A DNA stretch of 64,000 nt from Candidatus Bathyarchaeia archaeon (lineage in GTDB: Archaea; Thermoproteota; Bathyarchaeia; 40CM-2-53-6). The stretch covers positions 1 to 64,000 of the forward strand of contig DASYWW010000015.1 of the NCBI GenBank assembly GCA_035935655.1, in the 5' to 3' direction. Under the pieces are notes generated by a model that did not search any database, had not been told where the DNA came from, and saw nothing but the letters and a program-made list of their open reading frames with translations. Below are positions 1,777-24,778 of this stretch, in pieces. Numbering within the stretch: the first letter of the stretch is position 1; every line of letters starts with the position of its first letter. Both the position numbers and the translations under genes were made by a program.

Positions 1777-2169
1777 TTATTCCTGCCTGGCGTACTCTTC
1801 CTCTCTAGCTTCCTCCGCCTCGCTATCAGCGTCGTAATCGCTCTTCTCCTCCTCATCCTCGACAAATTCCCTGGGAAGCCCAACCTCTTCAAGACGTAAC
1901 TTTGTCCATTCCTTTCCGCAATCCCTACATTTGTAAGCAAATTTGTAGGTAACAAACGCCTCCGGATGGTCAGCCACCCTCTCTCCAGTCTCGATTGGCA
2001 ATCCCATCTTGAAGAAAACGTCCTTCTCCTTGAGCGCCTCAGCCGTGTCTATCACAGTCTTAGACAGCAGCTCAGCGGCAAGGAACTTGTGACAGAAGGG
2101 GCATTCTTCCAATACCAAGGAGGAGTCATGAGGGATTCCAATGATGAGACAGATTAGCCTTACTAGCAA
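1777..2169 (-). CDS. zinc-ribbon protein with acidic tail
   Basis: The 130-residue product has a CPFC pair near residue 25 and a CRDC pair near 82, which together would bind one zinc. The last ~35 residues are strongly acidic (EEEKSDYDADSEAEE). No enzyme motif is visible and I do not recognise the family; a nucleic-acid or protein adaptor role is a guess. The ORF can open with TTG at 2169, but that codon lies in the 8-bp target duplication of the TnpB element next door. A TTG at 2118 (MVLEECPFC...) is an equally good start. The element has inserted at or just before the 5' end, so the native promoter was probably displaced. It converges on rpiA. Confidence 0.7.
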   Translation of the reverse strand: MLVRLICLIIGIPHDSSLVLEECPFCHKFLAAELLSKTVIDTAEALKEKDVFFKMGLPIETGERVADHPEAFVTYKFAYKCRDCGKEWTKLRLEEVGLPREFVEDEEEKSDYDADSEAEEAREEEYARQE

Positions 2170-2170
2170 A
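2163..2170. repeat. 8-bp target site duplication, left copy
   Basis: CTAGCAAA sits directly outside the left inverted repeat of the TnpB element and is repeated exactly at 3447-3454 directly outside the right one. This is the signature of cut-and-paste or replicative insertion by a DDE-type transposase, and it marks the insertion point. Confidence 0.9.
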
Positions 2171-2237
2171 GGTTCTGTTAACTTATCGTCGGATGCCTCT
2201 CTGACCTATCTTTAGGATTTGGCGCTCGTTGTTTGTC

Positions 2238-3368
2238 GTGTTGGGTGTTAAGTCGGTCTGGCAGCATTGTGCCCCATCGCGAGAGGTTGTTGTACTACTG
2301 GAGGTGTTCAGACGGATGGTCAACGAGTCTCTACGGGTTGGTCTAGCTAACGACGTGTCTTCGCTGAGAAGGCTTTCACTCCTCTCCTATAGCCAGTTGG
2401 CCCAGTACGATTCCCCTAGCTACTACAAGCTCTGCGCGATATCACGCGCCGCAGGAATACTGGCCGCTAGAAAGAAGTCTGTCAGGAGAGGTCTCACCAC
2501 TAGGACCCCGTACGCCTTCAGACAACAGCTCGTCTCCTGCTACGGGTTCAAGATAGAGAACGGATACTTGCGCATTCCTGTATCAAGAGGGAAACGCGCC
2601 AGCATAATCTTGACCAAGCATACGCTAGAGGTCATATCACAACCGGGAGTCATAGTCCGCTCTTTCACCCTCACCGGGAACAGGTTGAGCCTCTGCATCG
2701 CCCGCGACACTCCCAGGATAGAATGCGCCTCCACGGTAGGTGTGGATCGCAATCTTCGTAATCTCACGGTTGGAAACGACCAGGAGACGACTCACTATGA
2801 TCTCTCAGAGACGGCGCGTATAGCCAGTACCACGGTGCGCATAGTATCCTCTTTCAGACGAAACGATCATAGAGTAAGAACGGCGATAGCGTCCAAGTAT
2901 GGACGGCGAAGAACCGCTAGAACCGGTCACCTACTCCACAACGCCACAAAGACGATCGTCACCTTAGCACATCAACAGAAGACAGCGATAGTTCTCGAGA
3001 ACATCGAGGGCATCCGATCCCTCTATCGAAAGGGTAACGGTCAGGGCAGAAAGTATCGGTGTAAAATGAACGGCTGGAGCTTCCGTGAAGCTCAACGACA
3101 GATAGAGTACAAGGCGCGATGGATGGGCCTCCCAGTAATCCGTTTGTCTAGGCGTGAGACCAGAGGTTCGAGTGTGACTTGTCCGAGATGCGGGGAGAGA
3201 CTCCAATCAGACAAGCGACTAGAACGCAAGCTCTGGTGCAGCAATTGTCGAACAGTAATGGACCGGGACATGGTCGCGGCCGTTAACTTGTCTCGGCGGG
3301 GACGGGTGAGGTTCGCACGTTCCCTGCCTCACATTAGTGAGGCGCAAGGCGGGCAGTTGAAGCAGTGA
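2238..3368 (+). CDS. tnpB: TnpB RNA-guided RuvC-type nuclease
   Basis: TnpB proteins are RNA-guided DNA endonucleases of IS200/IS605 and related elements. Numbered from a TTG at 2229, the RuvC triad is complete: Asp173 in VGVDRNLRN, Glu257 in IVLENIEG and Asp345/347 in MDRDMVAAVN. The zinc ribbon TCPRC...LWCSNC lies between the last two motifs. The GTG at 2238 was chosen because VLGVK aligns with the GTG-initiated VLAVK of the copy at 23555. The N-terminal ~165 residues match the usual wedge/REC region. The protein is clearly divergent from the copies at 2-301 and 23555-24712, so it is a second subfamily. Confidence 0.92.
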   Translation: MLGVKSVWQHCAPSREVVVLLEVFRRMVNESLRVGLANDVSSLRRLSLLSYSQLAQYDSPSYYKLCAISRAAGILAARKKSVRRGLTTRTPYAFRQQLVSCYGFKIENGYLRIPVSRGKRASIILTKHTLEVISQPGVIVRSFTLTGNRLSLCIARDTPRIECASTVGVDRNLRNLTVGNDQETTHYDLSETARIASTTVRIVSSFRRNDHRVRTAIASKYGRRRTARTGHLLHNATKTIVTLAHQQKTAIVLENIEGIRSLYRKGNGQGRKYRCKMNGWSFREAQRQIEYKARWMGLPVIRLSRRETRGSSVTCPRCGERLQSDKRLERKLWCSNCRTVMDRDMVAAVNLSRRGRVRFARSLPHISEAQGGQLKQ

Positions 3369-3433
3369 AGGGGAACCCGACGCCTACGGTAATCCCCGGA
3401 GTCGATGTCCCGAAGCTAACTCATCATAAGAAG
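3300..3433 (+). ncRNA. putative TnpB guide RNA (omega/reRNA) scaffold
   Basis: Guide RNAs of TnpB elements normally overlap the 3' end of tnpB and run past it. Here a 25-nt stretch starting TGAAGCAGTGAAGGGGAA (3358-3382) is identical to 24631-24655 in the other element, although it contains the stop codon here and is mid-coding there. Such nucleotide conservation independent of reading frame points to an RNA. The likely scaffold end is at GAAGCTAAC (3412-3420). Only ~26 nt then remain before the right element end, so the guide portion would lie largely inside the element. Exact ends are inferred. Confidence 0.5.
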
Positions 3434-3446
3434 AGTTAACAGAACC

Positions 3447-3454
3447 CTAGCAAA
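3447..3454. repeat. 8-bp target site duplication, right copy
   Basis: CTAGCAAA immediately follows the right inverted repeat and matches the left copy at 2163-2170 exactly. Confidence 0.9.
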
Positions 3455-3574
3455 GCACCATGAGGAGGTGCCCAGTCGCGCTCTCGTCAGCAGTTCTCAA
3501 GAAATAGTGAGAAGCTGAGAACGGTGACGGGTTACGGAAACCGCCACATTCGTGCTCTCAAGAACGACCGAGAA

Positions 3575-23229: not shown

Positions 23230-23554
23230 GTTCTTGTAACCGTGTGTCTTTGGTCCCGTATCCCTTCGCTTGTTGGATATATGGTAGAGAGGTACCGGTA
23301 TAAAACTGGCATGCCTCCGACGGACCTTAACCGGCATGGATGATCGGTTGACCCTGCCATGTACTACGCAAAAGGCATAGTTCCGCGAAACTCTTTGGGT
23401 CATTTTTTTGTTAGAAAAGACACTGCAAACTCTTCGTTGGATTGAAGGATTGTTAACTCTTTCTGGATGACGATTCGCTCTCGTGCGGCCGGGTTCGTCA
23501 TCCTCTCTGGCTATTTAGCACGAAAAGCAATTCCCTTGTTTGGGTCGCGGCCGA

Positions 23555-24712
23555 GTGCTGGCGGTGAAGACGATCAGACAGAAAAACCATGCCTCAGCCG
23601 AACTTTTACGGCTCCTAGACGAGTTCAGACATATGGTGAACGTCTGCATCGCTATCGGAACAAAAGAGAACGTTTCCAGTCTCAAGACTCTATCGTCGAA
23701 GTCCTATCATCATCTCAGTCGTGACATCCTTGGCTACTACAGGCTGTGTGCCGTCAGTACGGCTACCGGGATTCTTCACAACCATCGAAAGGCCAACAAG
23801 AAGATGAACCCCCGGGCAACCGTTCCGTATGCTAGGAGGTTGATGTTGACCACGTGCTACGGGTTCAAAATCCAGAATGGTCTTCTCAGAGTCCCGGTTA
23901 AACCTCGAGAGTACGTGTATGTCAAGCTAAACAGTCATACGCTCCAGGTCCTCTCAGGGCTCAATGTCCACTCGGTTACCTTTACACCCGACGCGCTCAG
24001 TATCAGCTACTCGAAAGAGACAGTTGAGATCGAGCCCGAAGGATACATTGGGGTAGATCGTAACCTGGACAACGTGACAACTGCATCAGCGAATGGAATG
24101 GTCAAGACATTCGACTTGTCAAAGGCGACCGGGATCAAGTCTACATACCGGTTTGTCAAGAGTCGATTCAAGAGAAACGACTCCCGAACAAGAGCGCAGA
24201 TCTTTTCCAAGTATGGAGAGAAGCAGCGGAACCGTGTACTACCAATACTCCACAACGTGTCCAAGAGAATTGTCGAGAATGCGAAGACTCGACGGTATGG
24301 CATAATAATGGAGAGACTGACCGGGATGAGAAGACTCTTTCAGAAAGATAATGGGCAGAGCAGAAACTATCGGGCGAGGATGAACAGTTGGAGTTATGGA
24401 GAGCTGCAGCGACAGGTAGAGTATAAGGCGCGATGGGAAGGAGTGAAGGTAATCTACGTTCCTGCTAGGAACACGTCCAAACGGTGCTCAATATGCGGGT
24501 ACAAGACCCTAGAGAGCACCAGACGAAGACTATGGTGTCCACACTGTGGAGCCACGCTAGACAGGGATGAGAACGCGGCTAGGAACATAGCTGCGAGAGG
24601 GCTGAGGTTCAGCCCCAACGGGCCTCCAGATGAAGCAGTGAAGGGGAACCCGACGACGACGGTAATCCTCAGAGTCGATGGAGGCAAGCTAGGTCGTTTC
24701 GCGCAGATCTAG
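23555..24712 (+). CDS. tnpB: TnpB RNA-guided RuvC-type nuclease
   Basis: This is a full-length TnpB with an intact RuvC triad: GVDRNLDNVT (Asp ~173 counted from 23540), GIIMERLTGM (Glu ~258) and LDRDENAARNIA (Asp ~341). The zinc ribbon CSICGYKTLE...CPHCG lies before the last motif. The GTG at 23555 (VLAVKTIRQ) is preferred over TTG 23540 because both full copies align from there. The C-terminal coding sequence overlaps the proposed guide RNA scaffold. Confidence 0.93.
   Translation: MLAVKTIRQKNHASAELLRLLDEFRHMVNVCIAIGTKENVSSLKTLSSKSYHHLSRDILGYYRLCAVSTATGILHNHRKANKKMNPRATVPYARRLMLTTCYGFKIQNGLLRVPVKPREYVYVKLNSHTLQVLSGLNVHSVTFTPDALSISYSKETVEIEPEGYIGVDRNLDNVTTASANGMVKTFDLSKATGIKSTYRFVKSRFKRNDSRTRAQIFSKYGEKQRNRVLPILHNVSKRIVENAKTRRYGIIMERLTGMRRLFQKDNGQSRNYRARMNSWSYGELQRQVEYKARWEGVKVIYVPARNTSKRCSICGYKTLESTRRRLWCPHCGATLDRDENAARNIAARGLRFSPNGPPDEAVKGNPTTTVILRVDGGKLGRFAQI
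24600..24712 (+). ncRNA. putative TnpB guide RNA (omega/reRNA) scaffold
   Basis: The 3' end of tnpB contains the same 25-nt block (24631-24655) found across and after the stop codon in the other subfamily at 3358-3382. It also has GTCGATGGAGGCAAG (24674-24688), shared with 245-259. After GCAAGCTAG (24684-24692) the copies diverge, which is where a guide would begin. Ends are inferred. Confidence 0.5.
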
Positions 24713-24778
24713 CAGAACCCGCAAATGAATTATATATGAACAGAATTGACCGCACGCTCTAAGGCGCCTTAGTGAGTT

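Follow-up and report, generated by a model that had tools for sequence, protein, structure and literature searches.

A close known counterpart of the locus considered here is the TnpB nuclease of ISDra2, an insertion sequence (IS) of Deinococcus radiodurans, which takes its guide from the approximately 16 nt of flank that follow the right end of the element, the transposon-associated motif (TAM) being the motif to the left of this sequence in the empty site; re-cutting of the donor joint by TnpB was proposed for this system, whose TnpB cleaves such a target in E. coli as well as in vitro (PMC8612924). The IS200/IS605 transposase and TnpB need the same motif, and motif and insertion are therefore inseparable in that family. 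A different setting is provided by the Fanzors, which reside on eukaryotic and viral DDE transposons and for which the target-site duplication is reported to become part of the scaffold of the right element RNA (reRNA) (PMC10711439). The present analysis concerns a tnpB element of 1,276 bp in a window of 64,000 nucleotides, representing bases 1-64000 of contig C15 of a 2.5-Mb draft archaeal genome. This element would work like ISDra2 TnpB, yet it is not an IS200/IS605 member, and it is quite probable that it represents a non-autonomous IS6-like element which carries a TnpB/omegaRNA homing module as a passenger and is retained by RNA-guided re-cutting of empty sites.

The tnpB element, its ends and its probable transposase

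The whole element occupies positions 2171-3446 of the forward strand, as delimited by repeat-to-repeat alignment with relatives, and is bounded by a left terminal inverted repeat (TIR) of 13 bp (GGTTCTGTTAACT, 2171-2183, forward strand), a boundary common to many copies, and by a perfect 13-bp right TIR (3434-3446, reverse strand) that also supplies the 3′ arm of the last hairpin of the omegaRNA. Exact copies of the 8-bp target-site duplication CTAGCAAA lie directly outside it at 2163-2170, where a relative (G017) has the site without the element, and at 3447-3454. The unit containing tnpB only, with perfect TIRs and exact 8-bp direct repeats, that an original prediction had described from the letters of this DNA was confirmed directly in the sequence. 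Chance repeats were ruled out because the whole unit aligns from end to end with approximately 25 full copies in relatives (75-84% identity), which start and stop at the repeats and many of which are flanked by other exact 8-bp duplications (GAATCCCA, ACTTTTTG, ATGAAAGG, GGTGTAGG, AGCGGCTG, CCCGAGTC, AACTTGCA and more). Sequence of the tnpB element was present in 14 of the 61 genomes searched, all of the same family, and the window element belongs to a family with many copies in its genus; the hosts of its nearest relatives are metagenome-assembled genomes (MAGs) of soil Candidatus Bathyarchaeota or Crenarchaeota. The insertion site was found free of the element in G017, where it aligns over its full extent (76% identity) and contains a single CTAGC, and also in G009, with an alignment reaching just past the junction. 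The 13-mer occurs three times in its own genome, always at an element end, and no further match with up to one mismatch was detected in the window beyond the two element ends. The original prediction had named the absence of an element-free site and unpaired 13-bp repeats throughout the genome as its possible refutations, and had called for other copies with different duplications; both refutations fail, since element-free sites exist and the 13-mer is restricted to element ends, and such copies are those given above. Several insertions occupy orthologous positions in different species, and the divergence of the element resembles that of its flanks, as at the L354/L391 insertion, where identity was 84% for the element and 87 and 89% for its flanks.

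The tnpB gene (2229-3368, forward strand) encodes a protein of 379 aa that matches the Pfam family Cas12f1-like_TNB (57.8 bits) and solved TnpB structures. The RuvC residues D173, E257 and D345 and the zinc ligands C318, C321, C337 and C340 are invariant among the TnpB copies, and the coding sequence is under purifying selection, with a ratio of non-synonymous to synonymous divergence of 0.18 across the TnpB body.

Searches of 21 genomes of the family detected no Y1 transposase (PF01797), while control genomes gave matches. The window element encodes no PF13610 DDE transposase either, tnpB being its only gene; such a transposase is encoded by other elements whose ends are similar. Its own genome harbours one intact IS6-type DDE transposase (PF13610, 48.8 bits), also containing rve, SWIM and zinc-ribbon domains, within an element of 3,085 bp that has GGTTCTGTTA ends and the 8-bp duplication AGCGAAGA; order-level relatives have SWIM-DDE transposases in elements with the ends GGTTCTGTTA and duplications TGCCGCGA, CACTTGCG and TTAGCGCG, and broken transposase copies in the genus lie in elements that start with GGTTCTGTTAAGTCTTCATCGGAC, closely matching the ends of the tnpB element. 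Owing to the GGTTCTGTTA ends and 8-bp duplications common to these elements, the best reading is that a SWIM-finger IS6-type DDE transposase moves the tnpB element in trans. The earlier proposal of movement in trans by a DDE-type transposase is thereby supported, if by inference, through the lack of Y1 in the 21 genomes and the DDE elements with the same ends. The suggested resemblance to the IS6 family also held, in that elements of the IS26/IS431/IS240 type share ends of the form GGYNCTGTT, the 8-bp duplication and the PF13610 transposase found in the related elements, an IS431-like terminal repeat being TGGTTCTGTTGCAAAGT (PMC10581047). What differs from IS6 is that the tnpB and omegaRNA elements lack a transposase and that the transposases here have additional SWIM and zinc-ribbon domains.

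Further arrangements of these elements were observed. On contig C27 of the same genome (L146:315-7501), a 4.1-kb cargo element (4,094 bp) is followed back to back by the 3.1-kb SWIM-DDE element, and the single 8-mer AGCGAAGA stands at the left, middle and right of the two adjoining TIR elements. At L108:1-1468 the SWIM part and the zinc-ribbon/DDE part of a transposase are in overlapping, different frames, reflecting decay or a programmed frameshift, and in a related family a 5.3-kb element (L188:1375-6637) has identical 30-bp inverted repeats around a SWIM-DDE transposase. Among other non-autonomous TIR elements whose ends match closely, L126:1179-3453 (by Pfam) and L114:3064-3784 (by an HxFxEGNKRT-like motif) encode a Fic-type protein and L125 a short open reading frame; the Fic-type cargo is perhaps another kind of addiction cargo.

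The omegaRNA and the TTR motif

The larger part of the story lies beyond the original prediction, in an omegaRNA, in elements that carry this RNA alone and in a motif beside the duplication. Conservation within the element is highest over the approximately 140 bases that lead up to its right boundary, and the conserved structured part of the putative omegaRNA (3304-3446, forward strand) overlaps the right TIR as well as the last part of tnpB, ending at the right boundary of the element as in TnpB and other OMEGA nucleases. A structure of 33 pairs was drawn on 65 sequences, with 94.5% of cells paired and changes on both sides in 18 of the pairs. It contained 137 double-change cells; sliding by 1-3 columns gave no more than 38, and none of 500 shuffles reached as many. 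Because the structure was drawn on this same alignment, the slid control is biased in its favour, while the compensatory changes are independent of that. Many compensatory changes occurred in a pseudoknot helix, which reads GCTCTC/GAGAGC in stand-alone copies and CGGGGC/GCCCCG in tnpB copies, and in the last hairpin, whose 3′ strand is inside the right TIR. Where tnpB and the omegaRNA overlap, synonymous divergence drops from 0.73 to 0.19.

A search with a 351-bp derivative established that at least 60 loci in the family carry the omegaRNA without tnpB. These stand-alone elements are TIR elements of approximately 350-410 bp with exact 8-bp duplications, the left end being GGCACTGTCAACTCTTCGG or similar and the right end ..GACTTGACAGAACC. 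Together with derivatives of 147-401 bp they fall under the definition of a miniature inverted-repeat transposable element (MITE), that is, a short non-autonomous TIR element with a duplication, and like MITEs they are present in many copies; they differ in that a conserved, structured guide RNA is always encoded at one particular end, and the 351-bp element was rejected as a plain MITE given the omegaRNA at its right end. A known Rfam RNA was likewise ruled out, as the stand-alone copies gave no Rfam match even at an E-value of 0.5. At one site orthologous between two species, L371 and L106 have, at the same duplication position, a stand-alone omegaRNA element and a tnpB element, respectively.

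The motif was determined for 42 omegaRNA-bearing insertions with at least 7 of 8 duplication positions matching, similar sites having been removed, although the set still includes an orthologous site repeated once in shifted form. To the left of the duplication, position -11 was T in 34, position -10 was T in 40 and position -9 was A or G in all 42. TTR directly adjoins the duplication in 32 of the 42 insertions, where the background frequency is 0.025 (binomial p ~7e-43), and NTR in 40, where it is 0.10. With exact duplications only, the counts were 26/33 for TTR and 31/33 for NTR. At the mirrored position in the right flank, TTR occurs in 3/42, compared to 32/42 on the left (Fisher 6.6e-11), and the elements lacking an omegaRNA, just eight in number, have TTR on neither side (0/8, Fisher 8e-5), three of them being of the same genus and having closely matching TIRs (L114, L125, L126). 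The TTR is thus 8 bp away from the element and does not touch it. By analogy with ISDra2, the guide would consist of the duplication and the flank behind it, and a TAM must therefore adjoin the duplication on the left, which is where TTR sits. For the window element the putative TAM is TTA (2160-2162, forward strand), directly left of the duplication and in keeping with the motif statistics, and the predicted guide is CTAGCAAAGCACCATG (3447-3462, forward strand), with the right copy of the duplication as its first 8 nt and a length of 16 nt assumed from ISDra2 (PMC8612924).

Proposed retention by re-cutting and competing explanations

The element shares with ISDra2 a TnpB with the RuvC D-E-D residues, an RNA spanning the 3′ end of tnpB and the right end, and, as predicted here, a guide in the flank and a TAM on the other side, whereas ISDra2 has palindromic ends, a Y1 TnpA and a TTGAT motif that touches the element (PMC8612924). 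The element described here has TIRs and an 8-bp duplication instead, its TTR is one duplication length away, and its genome has no Y1 TnpA. It is excluded from IS200/IS605 because none of three defining features tested was found, namely a Y1 TnpA, a lack of TIRs and duplication, and insertion directly 3′ of the TAM. The TIRs and 8-bp duplications also argue against IS607, which has neither feature (PMC6188088). The nearest precedent is the capture of Fanzors by DDE transposons in eukaryotes, where a TnpB homologue was likewise taken up by a cut-and-paste element with TIRs and a duplication and a TIR is part of the reRNA (PMC10711439); the duplication here, however, varies freely and fits a guide and not a scaffold, and the host is an archaeon. 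The element can accordingly be regarded as a prokaryotic counterpart of that capture, and a prokaryotic TnpB on an element with TIRs and a target-site duplication had no precedent in the openly licensed literature searched, the coverage of which was incomplete.

In the proposed mechanism, a SWIM/IS6-type DDE transposase would insert the element in trans, and the omegaRNA transcript would run into the flank to give a guide made of the 8-bp duplication and the bases that follow. The left junction of an occupied site would offer the TTR with just 8 matching bases and the right junction a full match with ACC in place of TTR, motif and full target coinciding at neither. An element-free allele would present both, to be cut by TnpB and repaired from the occupied copy so that the element stays, while insertions not adjoining TTR would be unprotected and lost. 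Stand-alone omegaRNA elements would rely on TnpB encoded elsewhere in the genome. With less assurance we incline towards a wider reading, in which this is a genome-wide, two-part system of RNA-guided retention in archaea, comprising tnpB genes together with omegaRNA elements, dozens in number, that lack TnpB, all spread in trans by an IS6-like DDE transposase, where each insertion makes its own guide out of its duplication and the flank, and TTR records selection by RNA-guided cleavage rather than transposase choice.

The TTR could alternatively be a target preference of the transposase, with TnpB and omegaRNA as neutral cargo, but we consider this unlikely. Target preferences are common among transposases, the omegaRNA-bearing elements may share one transposase group and AT-richness extends further left of the TTR; yet the ends are inverted repeats while the motif is one-sided and tied to the orientation of the omegaRNA, the elements without omegaRNA have no TTR on either side, and purifying selection on TnpB counts against neutral cargo. 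The stand-alone omegaRNAs might also serve another role, such as regulation of host genes by TnpB or a TnpB-like repressor, given that they are numerous and conserved at orthologous sites between species without tnpB, and that TnpB-derived RNA-guided regulators (TldR) are known in bacteria (PMC13418256). This role is very unlikely, as the expected guide of each copy matches its own insertion site, marked by TTR, as retention predicts. The D-E-D residues are moreover kept in the TnpB copies here, unlike in nuclease-dead regulators. That the elements are decayed IS200/IS605 copies with incidental repeats is extremely improbable: TnpB with a right-end omegaRNA is a hallmark of that family, but exact TIRs and varying exact 8-bp duplications recur in many independent copies, no Y1 transposase is present in the 21 genomes and the TTR is 8 bp from the element.

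Several points weigh against retention by re-cutting. IS6-type transposition is classically replicative and leaves no excised donor site, in which case sister copies, incoming DNA or some other loss would have to account for the element-free sites. The search for full elements with these ends and a transposase, as the original prediction had advised, yielded transposases between similar ends, but an intact one with exactly the subterminal sequence of the tnpB element was not found in the genus. The control elements without omegaRNA are few, MAG assemblies break at repeats, and the window TnpB is approximately 25 C-terminal residues shorter than its relatives owing to a frame change near the end of tnpB.

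The transposase here appears not to need TTR, and the motif is therefore readable as a record of TnpB action in nature, with TnpB selecting which insertions persist, whereby the debated role of TnpB would become directly testable. The stand-alone omegaRNA elements may constitute natural multi-guide sets, and a step toward multi-guide, CRISPR-like systems is conceivable.

Other copies in the window and genome

Viral or plasmid carriers were sought in IMG/VR, where the TnpB, the transposase, the TIR and the omegaRNA core gave no match. The other TnpB copies of the genome have no exact 8-bp duplication with a good left repeat, their left ends appearing decayed and their right ends intact. A second tnpB element is truncated by the start of the contig, and its 3′ part lies at 1-315 of the window (forward strand), with the C-terminal part of TnpB at 5-301 and the end repeat ..TTTAACGGAACC at 303-315; a further contig (G000:C18:1-294) also starts inside the same kind of element, such starts being expected where assembly breaks at repeats. 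A third tnpB copy (23540-24719, forward strand) comprises an open reading frame at 23540-24712, an omegaRNA core at 24659-24680, a right end of the same kind (..CTAGCAGAACC) ending at 24719 and a degenerate left end near 23415.
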